Part shown: positions 2 to 32,979 of the stretch, in pieces
Numbering within the stretch: position 1 is the first letter of the stretch
Layout of the letters: every line of letters begins with the position of its first letter
Origin: Pseudoruegeria aquimaris
GTDB lineage: Bacteria; Pseudomonadota; Alphaproteobacteria; Rhodobacterales; Rhodobacteraceae
Direction of reading: 5' to 3'
Assembly: GCF_900172235.1 (NCBI RefSeq)
Contig: NZ_FWFQ01000006.1
Location: 62,001 to 126,000, forward strand
Length of the DNA stretch: 64,000 nucleotides
Made by a program: the position numbers and the translations under genes
The notes under the pieces: model-generated
What the model saw: the letters and a program-made list of their open reading frames with translations, nothing else
What the model was told of the DNA's origin: nothing
The model's database searches: none

Positions 2-1351
2 CTGCTGCTGCTGGACGAGCCGACGAACTACCTCGATCTCGAAGGCGCGCTCTGGCTGGAAAGCTACCTTGCGAAATACCCGCACACGGTCATCATCATC
101 TCCCATGACCGGGGCCTGCTGAACCGCGCCGTGGGCGGCATCCTGCACCTGGAAGACCGCAAGCTGACTTACTACCAGGGCCCCTACGATACCTTCGCCC
201 GCACCCGCGCCGAGCAGCGCGCCGTGCAGGCCGCGATGGCCAAGAAGCAGGAAGCCCGCAAGGCCCATATGCAAAGCTTCGTGGACCGCTTCCGCTACAA
301 GGCGTCCAAGGCCAAGCAGGCGCAGGCCCGGCTGAAGATGATCGAACGGATGGAGCCCATCGCCGCGCCGGAAGAGGCCGCGAAACGGGTGTTCACCTTC
401 CCCGAACCGGAAGAGCTGTCGCCCCCCATCGTCAACATGGAGGGCGCGCAGGTGGGCTATGACGGCACGCCGGTGCTCTCGCGCCTGTCGCTGCGCATCG
501 ATCAGGATGACCGCATTGCGCTGCTGGGCAGGAACGGCCAGGGCAAATCCACGCTCTCCAAGCTGATCTCGGGCCGGCTGCAGCCGATGAGCGGGCGCAT
601 GATCACCGCCAACAAGCTGCGGATCGGCTATTTCGCCCAGCACCAGGTGGACGAACTCCACGTCGAGGAGACGCCGCTTCAGCACCTGCAAAGGCTGCGC
701 CCGGACGAAACCCCGGCCCGCCTGCGCGCGCGGCTGGCGGGCTTCGGCCTGATGGCGGACCAGGCCGAAACCGAGGTCGGCCGGCTCTCGGGCGGCCAGA
801 AAGCGCGGCTGTCCCTGCTGCTGGCCACCATCGACGCCCCACACCTGCTGATCCTCGACGAGCCGACGAACCACCTCGACATCGAAAGCCGCGAGGCGCT
901 GGTGGAAGCGCTCACCGCCTATTCCGGCGCGGTGGTGCTGGTCAGCCACGACATGCACCTGCTCTCGCTGGTGGCCGACAGGCTGTGGCTGGTGAAGGAC
1001 GGCACCGTGACCCCTTACGAGGAGGATCTGGAAGCCTACCGGAAGATGCTGCTCACCGCCGATGCCCCGGCGCGGCCGGCCAAGGAAAAGCCCGCACCCA
1101 AGCGCCCCTCGCGCGATGCGATCCTCGCGCTGCGGGCGGAGGTGCGCAAGTGCGAAGAAAGAGTCAACAAGCTCAACGAGATGCGCGATACTCTGGCCGA
1201 ACGCCTCGGGCAGCCGGGCCTCTATGACGGCCCCGACGCCGAGAAGGCCGTCGCTTGGCAGAAGAAATACGCCGAGGTGATGGAAGGGCTCGATCGGGCT
1301 GAGGATCTCTGGATGAAGGCCCTGGAAAAACTGGAAGCGGCAGAAGGCTGA
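2..1351 (+). CDS. ABC-F family ATP-binding protein, 3' part only
   Basis: The frame is open from the first bases of the window, so the gene starts to the left; about 449 codons remain of a family of roughly 620. The first visible residues are the Walker B/D-loop of cassette 1 (LLLLDEPTNYLDL), followed by an interdomain arm rich in Lys, Gln and Arg. Cassette 2 has Walker A GRNGQGKST near base 530, signature LSGGQKARLSLL near 790 and LLILDEPTNHLDI near 850. A charged coiled-coil tail closes the protein. There are no membrane segments, as in soluble ABC-F proteins that act on ribosomes (Uup/YheS type). It is followed after 4 bases by the MarC gene, so the two are likely cotranscribed. Confidence 0.93.
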   Translation: MLLLDEPTNYLDLEGALWLESYLAKYPHTVIIISHDRGLLNRAVGGILHLEDRKLTYYQGPYDTFARTRAEQRAVQAAMAKKQEARKAHMQSFVDRFRYKASKAKQAQARLKMIERMEPIAAPEEAAKRVFTFPEPEELSPPIVNMEGAQVGYDGTPVLSRLSLRIDQDDRIALLGRNGQGKSTLSKLISGRLQPMSGRMITANKLRIGYFAQHQVDELHVEETPLQHLQRLRPDETPARLRARLAGFGLMADQAETEVGRLSGGQKARLSLLLATIDAPHLLILDEPTNHLDIESREALVEALTAYSGAVVLVSHDMHLLSLVADRLWLVKDGTVTPYEEDLEAYRKMLLTADAPARPAKEKPAPKRPSRDAILALRAEVRKCEERVNKLNEMRDTLAERLGQPGLYDGPDAEKAVAWQKKYAEVMEGLDRAEDLWMKALEKLEAAEG

Positions 1352-1355
1352 CGGC

Positions 1356-2009
1356 ATGGACGCAACCGCACTCATCACCGCCTTCGTGGCGCTCTTCGTG
1401 GTGATCGATCCGATCGGCCTCGCGCCGCTCTACCTCGCCATGACGCAGGGCATGGGCGATGAACGCCGCCGCGCCATTGCCCGCCGCGCCTGCCTCGTGG
1501 GCGTGGGCGTGCTCACCGTGTTCGGCCTGTTCGGCGATTCCCTTCTGCAGTTCCTCGGCATCTCGCTTTCGGCCTTCCGCGTGGCCGGGGGCATCCTGCT
1601 CTTTCTCACCGCGCTCGACATGCTGTTCGAACGCCGCACCAAGCGCCGGCAAGATCAGGCCGAGAACGCACAGGCCGACGAGGACCACCGCGACGATCCC
1701 TCGATCTTTCCGCTCGGCATCCCGCTGATCGCCGGGCCGGGCGCCATCGCCACCATGATCCTGCTCACCGGGCAGGCCGAGGGCGACCCGGCGCTCTATG
1801 CCGCCTACATGGCGGTGATGGTCTTCGTGGTGCTCGTCGTCTTCGTGCTGTTCCACATGGCGCCGCTGCTGGAGCGGGTGCTGGGCGACACCGGGATCCT
1901 CGTGGTGACCCGGCTTCTGGGCATGCTGCTGGCGGCACTTTCGGTGCAGTTCGTGCTCGACGGCGTGGCCGGTTTCATGGCCCAGACCGGCGGCGCCCCC
2001 CTTCACTGA
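1356..2009 (+). CDS. MarC family integral membrane protein
   Basis: A 217-residue hydrophobic protein with about six membrane segments. It carries the N-terminal pattern of the MarC/UPF0056 family (FVVIDPIGLAPLY) and the conserved central IPLIAGPGAIATMILL stretch after a charged cytoplasmic loop (KRRQDQAENAQADEDHRDD). Its function is not firmly established; the original link to multiple antibiotic resistance was withdrawn in the literature. It starts 4 bases after the ABC-F stop codon, suggesting one transcript. Length and motifs fit the family, so the family call is secure while the role is open. Confidence 0.9.
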   Translation: MDATALITAFVALFVVIDPIGLAPLYLAMTQGMGDERRRAIARRACLVGVGVLTVFGLFGDSLLQFLGISLSAFRVAGGILLFLTALDMLFERRTKRRQDQAENAQADEDHRDDPSIFPLGIPLIAGPGAIATMILLTGQAEGDPALYAAYMAVMVFVVLVVFVLFHMAPLLERVLGDTGILVVTRLLGMLLAALSVQFVLDGVAGFMAQTGGAPLH

Positions 2010-2055
2010 GCGCGCGCGCTGCCTACATGTGAGGGGCAACCCCACCGGAGGCCCC

Positions 2056-2637
2056 ATGAGCGGAGATCAGATCGGAAGCGTGTTCTACCTCGTCCTGCTG
2101 GGCTGCGCGGTAACGCTGTGGTTCTTCGCCCAGAACCGCGCCAGCAAGGGCAAGGTGCTGCAACAGGCGCTCGTCTGGGTGCTGATCTTCGTCGGCGCCA
2201 TCGCGGCCGTCGGCCTCTGGGGCGACATCCGCCGCGACGTGATGCCCCGCCAGAGCTACGTCGAAGGCAGCGGTGAGATCACCCTGCCCCGCGCCCCGAA
2301 TGGCCACTTCTACGCCACGCTCGAGGTCAACGGCACCCCCGTGCGCTTCGTGGTGGACACCGGCGCCACCAACATCGTGCTCACGCAACGCGATGCCGCG
2401 CGGGTCGGGCTGGATGCGGGCGAACTGGCCTACGTCAACGCCGCCAACACCGCCAACGGCATCGTGCGCACGGCGCGGGTGAAGCTCGATGAACTGGTGC
2501 TCGGCGATGTCATCGACCGGAACGTCCCGGCCTACGTGAACGAAGGCGAGATGTCGGAATCGCTGCTGGGGATGAGCTACCTGCAACGCTACGGCACGAT
2601 CCGGATCGAGGGCGACGCGCTGCACCTGGAGCGCTAG
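2056..2637 (+). CDS. Membrane-anchored retropepsin-like aspartic protease (TIGR02281 type)
   Basis: A 193-residue protein with two N-terminal membrane segments (about residues 6-26 and 35-53) followed by a single aspartic protease domain. The catalytic motif VDTGATN places the active-site Asp at residue 101. Single-domain clan AA proteases of this size act as homodimers, and here the domain should face the periplasm. I chose the ATG at 2056 because GGAG lies 5 bases upstream; an in-frame ATG at 2029 would add nine residues without a ribosome site. The substrate is unknown. Confidence 0.85.
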   Translation: MSGDQIGSVFYLVLLGCAVTLWFFAQNRASKGKVLQQALVWVLIFVGAIAAVGLWGDIRRDVMPRQSYVEGSGEITLPRAPNGHFYATLEVNGTPVRFVVDTGATNIVLTQRDAARVGLDAGELAYVNAANTANGIVRTARVKLDELVLGDVIDRNVPAYVNEGEMSESLLGMSYLQRYGTIRIEGDALHLER

Positions 2638-2723
2638 GGCCGGGAAACAGCCCGATGGGGCCTTGCGCCGGGGCGCAATCGCGGAAACCATGCGGGCTGC
2701 AACACCAGCGAAGAGGCGCCCCC

Positions 2724-3434
2724 ATGCAGCAACCGATCGAGCTCTATTTCTGGCCCACGCCGAACGGGTGGAAGATCTCCATCGCGCTGGAGGAAATGGC
2801 GCTGCCCTACCGGCTGAACCTCATCAATATCGGCAAGGGCGAACAGTTCGCGCCTGAGTTCCTCGCGATCTCCCCCAACAACCGGATGCCTGCCATCGTG
2901 GACCCGGACGGCCCCGGCGGCGCGCCGATCTCGATCTTCGAAAGCGGCGCCATCCTGCAGTATCTCGCCCGCAAGACGGGCCGTTTCTACGGCGAGACCC
3001 AGCGCGAGCGGATCGCGGTGGATCAATGGCTGATGTGGCAGATGGGCGGGCTCGGGCCGATGGCGGGGCAGGCCCACCACTTCCTGAAATACGCGCCCGC
3101 GATGGATCCGCCGCAGGATCTGCCCTACGCCAAGGATCGCTACCGCAACGAGGTCGCGCGGCTCTACGGGGTGCTGGATCGCCAGCTGGCGAAACACGCT
3201 TACGTCGCCGGGGATTTCTTCTCGATTGCCGACATGGCGATCTGGGGCTGGGCCTCGCTCTGGGAAGGCCAGCAGCAGACCCTGGAGGACAAACCCCACA
3301 TGGCCCGCTGGCTGGAAACCTGCGCCGCCCGCCCCGGCGTCAAGGCCGGCCGCGCGCTGGCCGCCGAACTGCGCGGCGATTTCCGCAAGGAGAAAGGCGC
3401 GCAGGACGTGCTCTTCGGCAAGCAGCGCAGCTAG
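2724..3434 (+). CDS. Glutathione S-transferase family protein
   Basis: A 236-residue protein with an N-terminal thioredoxin-like domain starting IELYFWPTPNGWKISIALEEM and a helical C-terminal domain. The glutathione-binding ESGAILQYLA motif lies at about residues 74-83. The PNGWK active-site region resembles the YfcG/Ure2-like (nu) class, which often has disulphide-bond reductase activity. The start at 2724 follows a purine-rich AAGAGG; an upstream in-frame ATG at 2655 has poor support. The substrate cannot be told from the sequence. Confidence 0.88.
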   Translation: MQQPIELYFWPTPNGWKISIALEEMALPYRLNLINIGKGEQFAPEFLAISPNNRMPAIVDPDGPGGAPISIFESGAILQYLARKTGRFYGETQRERIAVDQWLMWQMGGLGPMAGQAHHFLKYAPAMDPPQDLPYAKDRYRNEVARLYGVLDRQLAKHAYVAGDFFSIADMAIWGWASLWEGQQQTLEDKPHMARWLETCAARPGVKAGRALAAELRGDFRKEKGAQDVLFGKQRS

Positions 3435-3446
3435 CGCAGACGCGCG

Positions 3447-4079
3447 CTACTCCGCGCCCTCGTCCTCTTCCAGCGCGTAGGTCTGGAACAGTTTGCTCTG
3501 GGTCATGAAGAACAGGAAGACGGCCGCCGTGAGGCCGAAGGTCTTGAAGTTGACCCAGGCATCGGTGCTCATCGTGCGCCAGATCACTTCGTTCAGCACC
3601 GCCAGCCCGAGGAAGAAGGCGCAGAGGCGGCGGGTGAGGATCATCCAACCCTCCTCCTGCATCGGCAGCGCCTCCTCCATCACCACGCGCAGGTAGCTTT
3701 CGCCGCGCAGCAGGCCGAAGCCCAGCACGCCCCCGAAGAGCAGGTAGATCATCGTCGGCTTCATCTTGAAGAAGCGCTCGTCGTTGAACCAGACGGACAG
3801 CCCGCCGAAGAGCACCACCAGCACCGCCGTCACGATCTGCATCTTGGAAAGCTTCCCGGTGAGCATCCAGAGGATCGCCGTGCAGGCCAGCAGGATCGGG
3901 ATGAAGGCTGCCGTGACCACGATGAAGCCTTCGTACTCGGTGCCGCCGATGGTGAACATCGTATCCTTCAGCCGGACGTAGCCGATGAAGAAGGCCGCGA
4001 TCGGGCCCAGTTCGAGCGCCATCTTCAGGAAGGGGTTCACCGTCCGGGTTTCGGGTTTTTCCACGTCGCTTTCGCTCAT
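3447..4079 (-). CDS. yciB: Inner membrane-spanning protein YciB / septation protein A
   Basis: A 210-residue polytopic protein with about five to six membrane segments. It has the family features LELGPIAAFFIGY near the N-terminus, FGGLSVWFNDERFFKMKPT in the middle and LNEVIWRTMSTDAWVNFKTFG near the end. Family members are linked to cell-envelope integrity and septation in enterobacteria and Shigella. The start at 4079 (MSESDVEKPET) is preceded by GGAAAG; a longer in-frame start at 4109 would overlap the upstream EamA gene. It is third in a minus-strand series after ftsY and the EamA transporter. Confidence 0.92.
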   Translation of the reverse strand: MSESDVEKPETRTVNPFLKMALELGPIAAFFIGYVRLKDTMFTIGGTEYEGFIVVTAAFIPILLACTAILWMLTGKLSKMQIVTAVLVVLFGGLSVWFNDERFFKMKPTMIYLLFGGVLGFGLLRGESYLRVVMEEALPMQEEGWMILTRRLCAFFLGLAVLNEVIWRTMSTDAWVNFKTFGLTAAVFLFFMTQSKLFQTYALEEDEGAE

Positions 4080-4092
4080 CTCGCTCGCTTTC

Positions 4093-4995
4093 CTAACCGC
4101 CCAACTCAACTATCACCGCGCCCAGCGCAATCAACCCCATCAGTGCCAGCCGGCGCGGGCCGACGCTCTCTTTCAGCACGAGCCAGCCGATCAGCGCGGC
4201 AAAGAGCGTGCTGGTTTCGCGCATTACCGCGGCCTGGCCGACGCTGTCGATCCGGGTGGCGAGCATGATCGAGCCGAAGCTGAAATAGGCCACGAAGGCC
4301 CCCAGCACCCCGCGTCTGAGCAGCGGGCCGAGCGTGGGGCGCACTTCCATGTGTTTCCAGCGCCACGCGGCATAGATGGGCATGGCCAGACCGTCGATCA
4401 GGAAGAACCACGCGAGGAAGGTGAAGGGGTTGGCCGTGGCACGGATGCCGTAGGCGTCATAGGTGGTGTAGAGCGCCACGAAGATGCCGGTGATCACCGC
4501 GAACAGGAGCGCAAGCGGCAGGTTCTCGCGGTTCACCACCGTGAATTTCAGGTTGTAGACGGCAAAGCCGTAGATCCCGGCCAGCAGCACGGCGACACCC
4601 AGCCACTGCAGCGGCGAGAAGCTTTCGTGGAAGATCAGCCCCGCCCCGATCACCGCGAAGAGCGGCCCCGTGCCGCGCACCACCGGGTAGACGACCGTAT
4701 AGGCCCCGAGCGTGTAGGTCTTGGCCTGGAGGACCTTGTAGATCAGGTGGATCACGAAGGCCCAGCCGAAAATCGGCCACATGTGCGGCTCGGGCCAGGG
4801 CACCACGAAAAGCGCGAAGGGCGCTGCGATGGCGCCGTAGCAGAAATCGATCGCCCCGCGCGACAGCCAAGGATCGTGGCGCCCCTTCTGCAGCGCCCCG
4901 AAGACGGCGTGCAGGAAGGCCGCCAGCAGCGCAAGGCCTAGGGCGATCGGGCGTGCGGCCTCGGTGCCTTCGATGGACAGGAGCCAATCGCTCAT
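4093..4995 (-). CDS. EamA/DMT family transporter
   Basis: A 300-residue protein with about ten predicted membrane helices arranged as two EamA repeats. Helix-end motifs typical of the drug/metabolite transporter superfamily are visible (VVRGTGPLFAVIGA, then SVGQAAVMRETSTLFAALIGWLVLKE). The substrate is unknown. It sits 13 bases upstream of yciB and downstream of ftsY on the same strand, an arrangement that suggests cotranscription with yciB. The 171-base gap to ftsY contains no recognisable gene. Confidence 0.87.
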   Translation of the reverse strand: MSDWLLSIEGTEAARPIALGLALLAAFLHAVFGALQKGRHDPWLSRGAIDFCYGAIAAPFALFVVPWPEPHMWPIFGWAFVIHLIYKVLQAKTYTLGAYTVVYPVVRGTGPLFAVIGAGLIFHESFSPLQWLGVAVLLAGIYGFAVYNLKFTVVNRENLPLALLFAVITGIFVALYTTYDAYGIRATANPFTFLAWFFLIDGLAMPIYAAWRWKHMEVRPTLGPLLRRGVLGAFVAYFSFGSIMLATRIDSVGQAAVMRETSTLFAALIGWLVLKESVGPRRLALMGLIALGAVIVELGG

Positions 4996-5166
4996 GGGTC
5001 GGGTTCCAACTGCTTGCAGCCCCTTCCCTCGTCAGGCCGCGATGATCGGTCTGGCCGGGCAGCCCCAACGGCCCGACCGGCCCCCGCCATACGCCCGTGA
5101 GGTGCCTTGTGCAAGCCGCGGAGAGGTCGCTCCCCCTTTTCGGATACCTCCGGTCAGAAGAGAAGG

Positions 5167-6312
5167 TCAGCCATCGAGCCCCGTCAGGGCGCGGGCGAAA
5201 TCCTCGGGATCGAAGGGGGCGAGATCGTCGATCTGCTCGCCGACGCCGATGGCGTGGATCGGCAGGCCGAACTTGTCGGCCAGCGCCACGAGCACGCCGC
5301 CGCGGGCGGTGCCGTCGAGCTTGGTCATCACGAGGCCCGAGACATCGGCGAGTTTCCGGAAGGTCTCCACCTGCGAGAGCGCATTCTGGCCGGTGGTGGC
5401 ATCGAGCACGAGCAGCGTGTTGTGGGGGGCGGTTTCGTCCTTCTTGCGGATCACGCGGACGATCTTGGCCAGTTCCTCCATCAGGTCGGCGCGGTTCTGC
5501 AGGCGGCCGGCGGTATCGATCATCAGGAGGTCGGCACCCTCTTCCTGCGCCTTGGTCATGGCGTCATAGGCGAGGCTGGCCGGATCAGAGCCCTCGGGCG
5601 CGGTGAGCACCGGCACGCCGGCGCGTTCGCCCCAGACCTGAAGCTGCTCCACGGCAGCGGCGCGGAAGGTATCGCCGGCGGCGATCACCACCGATTTGCC
5701 AGCCGCCTTGAACTGGCTGGCGAGCTTGCCGATGGTCGTCGTCTTGCCGGAGCCGTTGACCCCGACCACCAGCACCACCTGCGGACGCTTGGCATAGAGC
5801 GGCATCGGGCGGGCGACGGGCTCCATGATGCGGGCGATCTCGTCGGCGAGCAGGCGCTTGATCTCCTCGGTGGAGAGGCGTTTGCCGTAGCGCCCCTCGG
5901 CCATGTTCGCGGTGACGCGCATGGCGGTGTCCACGCCCATGTCGGAGGTGATGAGCAGCTCTTCGAGGCTTTCGAGCATCTCGTCGTCGAGTTCGCGACG
6001 CACGACGGCCTTGCGCTCACCGCCCAGCAGGCGGTTGAGAAGGCTGGCACTTTCGGGTTGCTGCGGCGCGGGCTCGGTGGCGGGCGCCGGATTGCGGCCC
6101 GGATCGGGCTGCGGCGCAGGTGCGGACGCGGGCGCGGCGGCTGCCGGGGCCTCGGGTTGCGGGGCCTCGGGTTGGGGTGCCTCGGATTGGTGCGCCGGGG
6201 CCTGCTCCACGATCTCTTCCGCGCCGCCATCCTCGACGATGGCCTCGAGCCCTTCCTCCAGCCGAGAGGAGGATTTGAACATCTTGCTACGGAGTTTCTT
6301 GAAGAACGACAT
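5167..6312 (-). CDS. ftsY: Signal recognition particle receptor FtsY
   Basis: A 381-residue SRP receptor GTPase that docks SRP-ribosome complexes at the membrane. The N-terminus has a basic amphipathic start (MSFFKKLRSKMFK), then an acidic and Pro/Ala-rich A domain with repeated QPEAP units to about residue 80. The NG domain shows G1 GVNGSGKTTTIGKLA, the I-box region DTFRAAAVEQL, G3 DTAGRLQNR and G4 TKLDGTARGG. I start at 6312 because the family begins close to this basic helix; an earlier in-frame ATG at 6345 adds an unrelated MKENPRKRPGP. It is divergent from the kinase-like gene. Confidence 0.97.
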   Translation of the reverse strand: MSFFKKLRSKMFKSSSRLEEGLEAIVEDGGAEEIVEQAPAHQSEAPQPEAPQPEAPAAAAPASAPAPQPDPGRNPAPATEPAPQQPESASLLNRLLGGERKAVVRRELDDEMLESLEELLITSDMGVDTAMRVTANMAEGRYGKRLSTEEIKRLLADEIARIMEPVARPMPLYAKRPQVVLVVGVNGSGKTTTIGKLASQFKAAGKSVVIAAGDTFRAAAVEQLQVWGERAGVPVLTAPEGSDPASLAYDAMTKAQEEGADLLMIDTAGRLQNRADLMEELAKIVRVIRKKDETAPHNTLLVLDATTGQNALSQVETFRKLADVSGLVMTKLDGTARGGVLVALADKFGLPIHAIGVGEQIDDLAPFDPEDFARALTGLDG

Positions 6313-6406
6313 GGGGCCTGGCCTCTTGCGCGGGTTTTCCTTCACCTAATGGAGGATGGGCGCGGTGAAAAGGGGGCGCGGTGAAAGGGGCCGGCACGGC
6401 GGGGCG

Positions 6407-6435
6407 TTGTGGCCGTGCTTCCGGGCGCCTATATA
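6407..6435 (+). promoter_or_regulatory. Candidate sigma-70 type promoter of the kinase-like gene
   Basis: TTGTGG (6407-6412) is separated by 17 bases from TATATA (6430-6435). This is the only AT-rich spot in the 153-base gap between the divergent ftsY and kinase-like genes and points towards the plus-strand gene starting at 6466. The -35 match is partial, so this is an inference from pattern only. Confidence 0.5.
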
Positions 6436-6465
6436 GCGCGGGCCTTTCCAATTCAGCGGCCCGCC

Positions 6466-32056: not shown

Positions 32057-32057
<1 letters not shown>
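31278..32057 (-). CDS. Exported VCBS/FG-GAP repeat protein
   Basis: A 259-residue protein with a signal peptide (LLAGGLAAGGALA, cleavage near residue 41). It has at least two FG-GAP/VCBS calcium-binding-like motifs (LADLDGDGAPEVIVVESD and GAADLDGDGRVEIAYVDRP), so the fold is probably a partial beta-propeller in the periplasm. Two C-terminal Cys residues may pair. The ATG shares a base with the stop codon of the upstream ferredoxin gene (TGATG), indicating coupling. Function is unknown. Confidence 0.82.
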
Positions 32058-32401
<344 letters not shown>

Positions 32402-32530: not shown

Positions 32531-32563
32531 TTGCAGCGGCGCATCAATGTTCTATTTTTGTTC
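32531..32563 (+). promoter_or_regulatory. LexA-controlled promoter (alphaproteobacterial SOS box)
   Basis: GTTC-TATTTTT-GTTC at 32549-32563 is an exact match to the alphaproteobacterial LexA site GTTC-N7-GTTC. A promoter is superimposed: TTGCAG (32531-32536), 16 bases, TATTTT (32553-32558), so LexA would cover the -10 box. The predicted transcript start falls on or next to the ATG at 32566, implying a leaderless message. The site form is that seen upstream of imuA/imuB/dnaE2 operons in related bacteria, from general knowledge. Confidence 0.8.
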
Positions 32564-32565
32564 CC

Positions 32566-32979
32566 ATGACGGACGCCCCGCCCCCCTCTTCCTCTTTCCC
32601 GGCCGCCGGCGGGTTTCACGGCCGGCCGGACTGGCCGCGCCCCCCCGCCTGCCTGCCCCATGCCCGGCTCGACGAGCCGCCCAGCGGCGCGCGCGTCTGC
32701 GTGGCGGGGCTGGTGCTGGTGCGCCAGCGGCCGGGCACGGCGAAGGGGGTGATCTTCCTGACGCTGGAGGACGAGACGGGGGTGAGCAACATCGTCGTCT
32801 GGCAGAAGGTCTACGAGCGGTTCCGCCGGGCGGTGATCTCGGGGCGGCTGCTGCGCGTCACCGGCCGCATCCAGCGCGAAAGCGGCGTGGTCCACGTGGT
32901 CGCCGAACATGTGGAGGACATCTCCCCCCTGCTCGACAGGCTCACCGCCCCGGCGGAGCCGCAGGGCGGGGGCGCCTAG
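32566..32979 (+). CDS. Orphan OB-fold domain matching the C-terminus of error-prone polymerase DnaE2
   Basis: A 137-residue protein. Residues about 42-122 ([36 protein letters not shown], then [29 protein letters not shown]) match the OB domain near the end of DnaE2/ImuC polymerases. The first 40 residues and last 12 are Pro/Ala-rich and not recognised. The polymerase body, imuA and imuB are absent here. With a LexA box at its promoter it looks like what is left after an internal deletion of an SOS mutagenesis operon, or a stand-alone single-strand-DNA-binding OB protein. No ribosome site precedes the ATG. Confidence 0.7.

Follow-up and report, generated by a model that had tools for sequence, protein, structure and literature searches.

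A split DnaE2 in Rhodobacteraceae, with an OB domain probably supplied in trans by a LexA-controlled gene

Many bacteria owe their damage-induced mutations to DnaE2, and the OB domain of C-family polymerases contacts single-stranded DNA. In a 64,000-nt stretch of Pseudoruegeria aquimaris DNA (here, the window), an SOS-type promoter stands before a gene for such a domain and nothing more, raising the question of why the tail of a mutagenic polymerase should be a gene of its own. A sequence-only reading of the locus had offered two answers: a deletion that joined the SOS promoter of an imuA-imuB-dnaE2 cassette to the polymerase tail, or a new small SOS-induced single-strand-binding OB protein. 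We favour a third. That DnaE2 has undergone a conserved split, with the OB gene behind a LexA box, we hold to be close to certain; that the outcome is a split SOS mutagenic polymerase, whose OB domain comes in trans from a LexA-controlled gene and works with the core, is a probable reading of the sequence evidence. The split is read from homology, an OB-less core, co-occurrence, a conserved box and spacing, and purifying selection.

The OB gene and its promoter

Table 1. Features of the OB locus, in positions of the window
Feature	Position	Strand	Basis or remark
2Fe-2S ferredoxin, 107 aa, divergent neighbour	32057..32380	-	PF00111; marks the conserved OB-gene site, outside the proposed system
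-35-like hexamer TTGCAG	32531..32536	+	16 nt from the -10; 3/6 match to TTGACA
LexA box GTTC-N7-GTTC, GTTCTATTTTTGTTC	32549..32563	+	exact match; overlaps the -10
-10 element TATTTT	32553..32558	+	within the LexA box spacer
OB-domain protein of 137 aa, stand-alone; proposed to act as the OB subunit of DnaE2 in trans	32566..32979	+	NF004225, PF01336
N-terminal WPRPP motif, conserved, residues 23-27	32632..32646	+	alignment of relatives
OB fold proper, residues 44-119	32695..32922	+	PF01336, 47.8 bits (cut-off 27)

The 137-aa protein (Table 1) matches the error-prone polymerase model NF004225 at positions 942–1041 of 1047 (115.2 bits, E = 2.5e-33). This C-terminal OB part is its best match, the runner-up NCBIfam model being DnaE1 (26.7 bits, E = 1e-06), which bears out the claim that the protein corresponds to the C-terminal OB domain of DnaE2 only. 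It contains no polymerase domains, its score falls under the whole-protein cut-off of NF004225 (939 bits), and its best-conserved residues are the same as in fused DnaE2. A defence library gave no match to the gene. An AlphaFold2 model shows an OB fold with a pLDDT of 88.5, with the WPRPP segment lying ordered against the OB domain itself (mean pLDDT of 94 for residues 21–30 of this isolated model); the idea that WPRPP is a peptide docking on the DnaE2 core is unsupported, the segment folding onto the OB domain in the model. Of 49 stand-alone OB proteins counted in our locus set (L numbers; L104 and L126 left out), 44 carry W..PP. A structure search with the model returned generic OB folds (aminoacyl-tRNA synthetases, Stn1 and RPA), which do not indicate a function.

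The OB gene is under purifying selection. A dN/dS check on the 137-residue form, as the sequence-only reading had advised, gives an omega of 0.082 between this genome (G000) and a congener (G001), where the core has 0.107; in four other genome pairs omega is 0.181–0.373 for the OB gene and 0.135–0.251 for the core. Over 1260 OB pairs, many of them distant and with dS often near saturation, NG86 omega has a median of 0.271 and a maximum of 0.853.

The exact GTTC-N7-GTTC box that had been noticed over the −10 element is present and is conserved in relatives. It starts 17 nt 5′ of the ATG (position 32566) and is the sole exact box of the window. Because an exact box turns up in 73 of 100 shuffled versions of the window, a single such box is without significance by itself; its significance comes from the spacing between box and ATG, which is conserved in relatives. 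An exact box lies within 250 nt upstream of the OB gene in 47 of 51 stand-alone L loci (the exceptions being L085, L104, L109 and L127) and upstream of it in 15 of 16 split genomes taken from our genome set (G numbers; G016 is the exception). These add up to 62 boxes, from two sets that share at least one genome (G026 = L086), and 55 of them start 16–19 nt 5′ of the ATG; the chance expectation for such a placement, judged from how densely this genome is set with exact boxes, is about 4e-5 per start codon. Among fused dnaE2 relatives, none of 25 has an exact LexA box at the same distance from the OB domain. The spacer consensus is TATnTTT, its six specified bases occurring, in order, in 59, 60, 50, 57, 56 and 56 of the 62 boxes, and a −35-like hexamer (at least 4/6 to TTGACA, at a spacing of 15–19 nt) is found in 44 of the 62 aligned promoters versus about 14 expected. 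A promoter scanner, at its own threshold, reported no sigma-70 site at the OB gene promoter.

Because the 16–19-nt spacing is conserved, we predict that the OB gene lies behind a LexA-repressed promoter with the transcript starting at or next to the ATG, and that its mRNA is probably leaderless. The leaderless start proposed earlier is, by the same spacing, probable, but it would not be unusual here, since such mRNAs are common enough among Alphaproteobacteria: the available passages of two papers report 375 in Caulobacter (PMC4117421) and 171 in S. meliloti (PMC3616915). With a conserved GTTC-N7-GTTC operator at its promoter, the OB gene is a probable member of the LexA (SOS) regulon and would be induced in the SOS response. 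Other exact LexA boxes in this genome stand upstream of lexA, recA, the imuA-like gene and imuB-dnaE2. At the lexA locus (L164, 1342–1367), two exact boxes overlap upstream of lexA.

The OB-less core and its distribution

A search of the genome contigs with NF004225 found three places: C19, taken to be DnaE1, C14:90666–93560 and C29:94650–94949, the last being the OB gene. The C14 match, at 1228.8 bits (cut-off 939), covers positions 7–942 only, and the protein ends in ...HPLALLRHILTPEAAPS, from where fused proteins continue into the OB domain. Pol3, finger and HhH are found in this core, together with a PHP match slightly under its cut-off; an OB domain is not among its domain matches. Directly upstream on C14 lies imuB (PF00817), and an exact LexA box (C14:88825–88839) ends 18 nt 5′ of the imuB ATG. 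An imuA-like gene (C37:4224–4751), which an exact LexA box (4839–4853) precedes by about 90 nt, was detected with the Dinoroseobacter shibae plasmid protein that precedes imuB as the query (33% identity); against the ImuA model NF033429 its product scores 34.4 bits and the D. shibae query 53.5, the cut-off being 150 for both. If the imuA-like gene is taken as a putative imuA, the mutasome parts are all present in this genome but dispersed over three contigs (C37, C14 and C29). At four other loci (L067, L068, L069 and L073, from G022, G026, G027 and G036), an exact LexA box lies 22–27 nt before the DnaE2-core profile match, on either strand, and for this reason these cores may have an SOS promoter of their own.

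How general is this arrangement? The family was sampled with 216 genomes, each from a different genus and with a completeness of 95% or more. A matching open frame of 128–400 aa was counted as a stand-alone OB gene, with at most 20 candidates scored per genome, and a profile match reaching position 1039 or beyond as a fused DnaE2. Stand-alone OB genes occur in 95 of the 216 genomes (94 among the matches listed, plus G109) and fused DnaE2 in 98 (95 among the matches listed, plus G110, G114 and G214), and the matches listed include a truncated core without the OB domain in 97 of the 216. Again among the matches listed, OB gene and truncated core occur together in 93 of the 95 OB-gene genomes, the cores of these 93 ending at NF004225 positions 937–978; a fused DnaE2 is accompanied by a separate OB gene in 2 of 98 genomes (G061 and G222); and the remaining 21 of the 216 have neither an OB match nor a DnaE2 over the cut-off. 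Fisher's test of the co-occurrence gives p = 2.0e-53, uncorrected for kinship, and this value overstates independence because the co-occurrence follows largely one clade. A first set of 61 genomes had held 16 with a core ending near position 940 and a separate OB gene.

Exceptions run in both directions. A truncated core with no OB match, in a search at E 0.01 and with NF004225, was found in 4 of the 216 genomes (G070, G089, G163 and G179), three of which are drafts of 320–490 contigs. The OB genes that lack a truncated core are those of G077 and G222. In G077 (7 contigs; L074/L161), the OB gene has an exact LexA box, and there is no DnaE2 match at all. G109 is a split genome with a divergent OB gene (C9:47049–49868 and C9:370474–370779); two stop codons lie within the profile match of its core. 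The fused genes of G110 and G214 are cut by contigs, and that of G114 is in pieces.

Three assignments were rejected. G011 had the appearance of a split genome, being a circular record cut inside a fused gene (matches at 214651–217569 and 18–407 of a 217,585-base contig). The short OB frame of G177 lies 124 bases from a contig end, matches positions 913–1047 and is part of a third copy that is broken over contigs. L128, from Mangrovicoccus, is not fused: its long upstream frame is not a polymerase, and it is a stand-alone OB gene in an accidental open frame. The 80 L loci accordingly comprise 51 stand-alone genes, L128, 25 fused genes and 3 that are cut or unclear (L130, L140 and L156).

Outside the family, among 241 genomes of the class that were examined, 124 gave matches, 4 of which belong to the family; no stand-alone OB gene was confirmed in the other 120, on the two of seven short open frames that were followed up. 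Both were discarded: G456 has a dnaE2 with a frame change before the OB domain, and the short frame of G452 looks like a remnant. The other five short frames (G403, G448, G462, G449 and G415) lie less than 1 kb from a contig start, and three more frames (G277, G351 and G380) are 504–650 aa long.

A proposed mechanism and its alternatives

We propose that the C-terminal OB domain was split off dnaE2, moved beside a ferredoxin gene and gained its own LexA-repressed promoter, and that PHP, Pol3, fingers and HhH remained with imuB at another locus, in a core that stops before the OB domain. On DNA damage, LexA would be cleaved, and the imuA-like gene, the imuB-dnaE2 core and the OB gene would be derepressed together. 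The OB protein would then supply in trans the single-strand-contacting domain absent from the core, and a working DnaE2 mutasome would be assembled from two polymerase genes. Both the binding of the OB protein to the core and its role on single-stranded DNA are what we infer here. Published models, in the available passages of PMC12926913, have DnaE2 meeting ImuB mainly via PHP and (HhH)2, so removal of the OB domain need not break the mutasome. It is possible, though doubtful, that the arrangement goes further: the core alone may be inactive or poorly active, with the leaderless OB protein licensing mutagenesis and the two LexA loci forming an AND gate.

The most serious alternative is that the OB protein has ceased to work with DnaE2 and become a single-strand-binding protein of the SOS response in its own right, the core working without an OB domain. 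Such a role would suit the confidently predicted stand-alone OB fold with its N-terminal segment ordered on it, a survey reporting several DnaE2 without OB (PMC3919608, passages available), the G077 OB gene without DnaE2 and the four genomes with a core and no OB match. We nevertheless judge it unlikely. Among the matches listed, 93 of 95 OB genes share the genome with a truncated core, and an OB gene is found in just 2 of the 98 genomes with a fused DnaE2; the SSB family PF00436 scores 16.7 bits against a gathering cut-off of 26. Further, in Thalassobacter stenotrophicus (G222; L126 and L160), where a fused DnaE2 is present and the split core is in fragments, the left-over OB protein has lost WPRPP and carries RHRP in place of RQRP, which is invariant in 48 aligned OB rows. 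The earlier suggestion of a new small single-strand-binding protein is supported in part, in so far as this is a small, probably SOS-regulated OB protein.

Less probable still, at a small fraction of our belief, is that the OB protein serves another SOS partner (ImuB, DnaE1 or RecA-coated DNA) and is merely derived from DnaE2, against which the OB gene tracks truncated DnaE2 and not DnaE2 generally. A decaying remnant of a deleted imuA-imuB-dnaE2 cassette, as strong homology to the polymerase tail only and an SOS-type promoter in front would suggest, is scarcely credible: a search for imuA, imuB and full dnaE2 found the imuA-like gene, imuB and an OB-less DnaE2 elsewhere in the genome with a LexA box at each locus, and the OB gene occurs in 95 of 216 genera (matches listed) with box and spacing conserved, has the low omega with G001 given above and adjoins a ferredoxin gene instead of cassette remains.

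Origin of the split and known systems

The ferredoxin gene marks the conserved site of the OB gene. On the opposite strand, 48 of 52 L loci (the 51 plus L128) and 16 of 16 G genomes have a ferredoxin motif upstream of the OB gene, and so do G061, G077 and G222; the motif is absent in G191 and in 25 of 25 fused controls. One ancestral relocation of the OB gene to the ferredoxin site fits this pattern. In the core tree, a single clade (support 98) unites the 16 split cores, and Albimonas donghaensis lies beside it (support 97), a placement that took in only part of the Albimonas core. A single open frame encodes the DnaE2 of A. donghaensis (L119, 91–3480), in which a low-complexity stretch, about 375 residues long, links the core to the OB domain and the C-terminal end has the form WPRPP-OB-RDFH; the linker is predicted to be disordered, in a fused-protein model of low overall confidence. 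In another fused protein, from G019 (L033), a GSGSGSGSGSGSG linker precedes the OB domain.

G191 (L158, 3127–7870) is split in situ: its OB gene lies 1.2 kb downstream of the core, with an arginine-deiminase-like gene on the other strand between them. This OB gene has a LexA box whose start is 20 nt 5′ of the ATG, and its product retains the RDFH tail known from fused proteins. The G191 core falls outside the main split clade, beside the fused DnaE2 of G019, and an AU test rejects, marginally (p = 0.031), a single clade for all 17 split cores. The OB tree (90 columns, one starred branch) sets the G191 OB beside one OB of the main clade (support 80). The core tree, the AU test and the retained RDFH tail argue for a second fission, and the OB tree weakly against it; G191 thus probably represents a second, separate fission at the same boundary. 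On this evidence, the same DnaE2 boundary was probably cut twice, in the main clade and in G191; in each case the OB gene so formed stands behind a LexA box. The likely order of events would be linker growth, then fission, then relocation.

Split and fused forms also meet in one genome. G061, which matches Dinoroseobacter shibae DFL 12, has the split pair on C1 and a fused cassette on a 126-kb conjugative plasmid; the plasmid locus (L165, pDSHI03, 408–6438) comprises an SOS-associated peptidase gene, an imuA-like gene, a PolY-family gene and a fused dnaE2, and the cassette is mentioned in the available passages of PMC9426580. Its place on a conjugative plasmid implies that plasmids carry fused cassettes about, and that these could take the place of the split form.

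In many marine and related bacteria, then, two genes at separate genome sites together seem to encode one mutagenic enzyme. Split members of the family include Ruegeria and, apparently, Dinoroseobacter (95 of 216 sampled genera, among the matches listed). The role of the DnaE2 OB domain is hard to probe where its removal means cutting the protein; its natural separation makes that role testable through one small gene. A genome scored as having 'DnaE2 without OB' can carry the OB domain elsewhere, and the family provides an example of gene fission in which candidate intermediates can still be seen.

Our literature searches recognised no description of a trans-encoded OB domain of DnaE2. Timinskas et al. 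2013 (PMC3919608) report that several DnaE2 lack the OB domain; the available passages name no separate OB gene, LexA control or lineage. Predicted LexA sites in D. shibae are described in PMC6473078; dnaE2 and the OB gene go unnamed in the passages available. Eleven types of DnaE2/PolY complexes are distinguished in PMC12926913 (2026), in the text available to us; these are multi-protein mutasomes around DnaE2, as proposed here, but 'OB domain' and 'OB-fold' are absent from that main text, and its section on DnaE2–ImuB contacts has no trans OB subunit.

Compared with fused DnaE2 (ImuC), an error-prone C-family polymerase with the OB domain at its own C terminus, the stand-alone protein is homologous over positions 942–1041 of NF004225 and keeps RQRP, LEDETG and W. 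It differs in having a gene of its own, on a contig other than that of the core. The C-terminal RDFH tail is likewise absent from 50 of 50 stand-alone L-locus proteins checked, whereas RDFH or a variant ends 24 of the 26 loci first called fused, the stand-alone L128 being among the other two. The ImuA-ImuB-DnaE2 mutasome cassette provides the second comparison: an imuA-like gene, imuB and the core are likewise found here, with an exact LexA box at each locus. Unlike in that cassette, the genes lie on three contigs (C37, C14 and C29), and the OB domain is a fourth gene.
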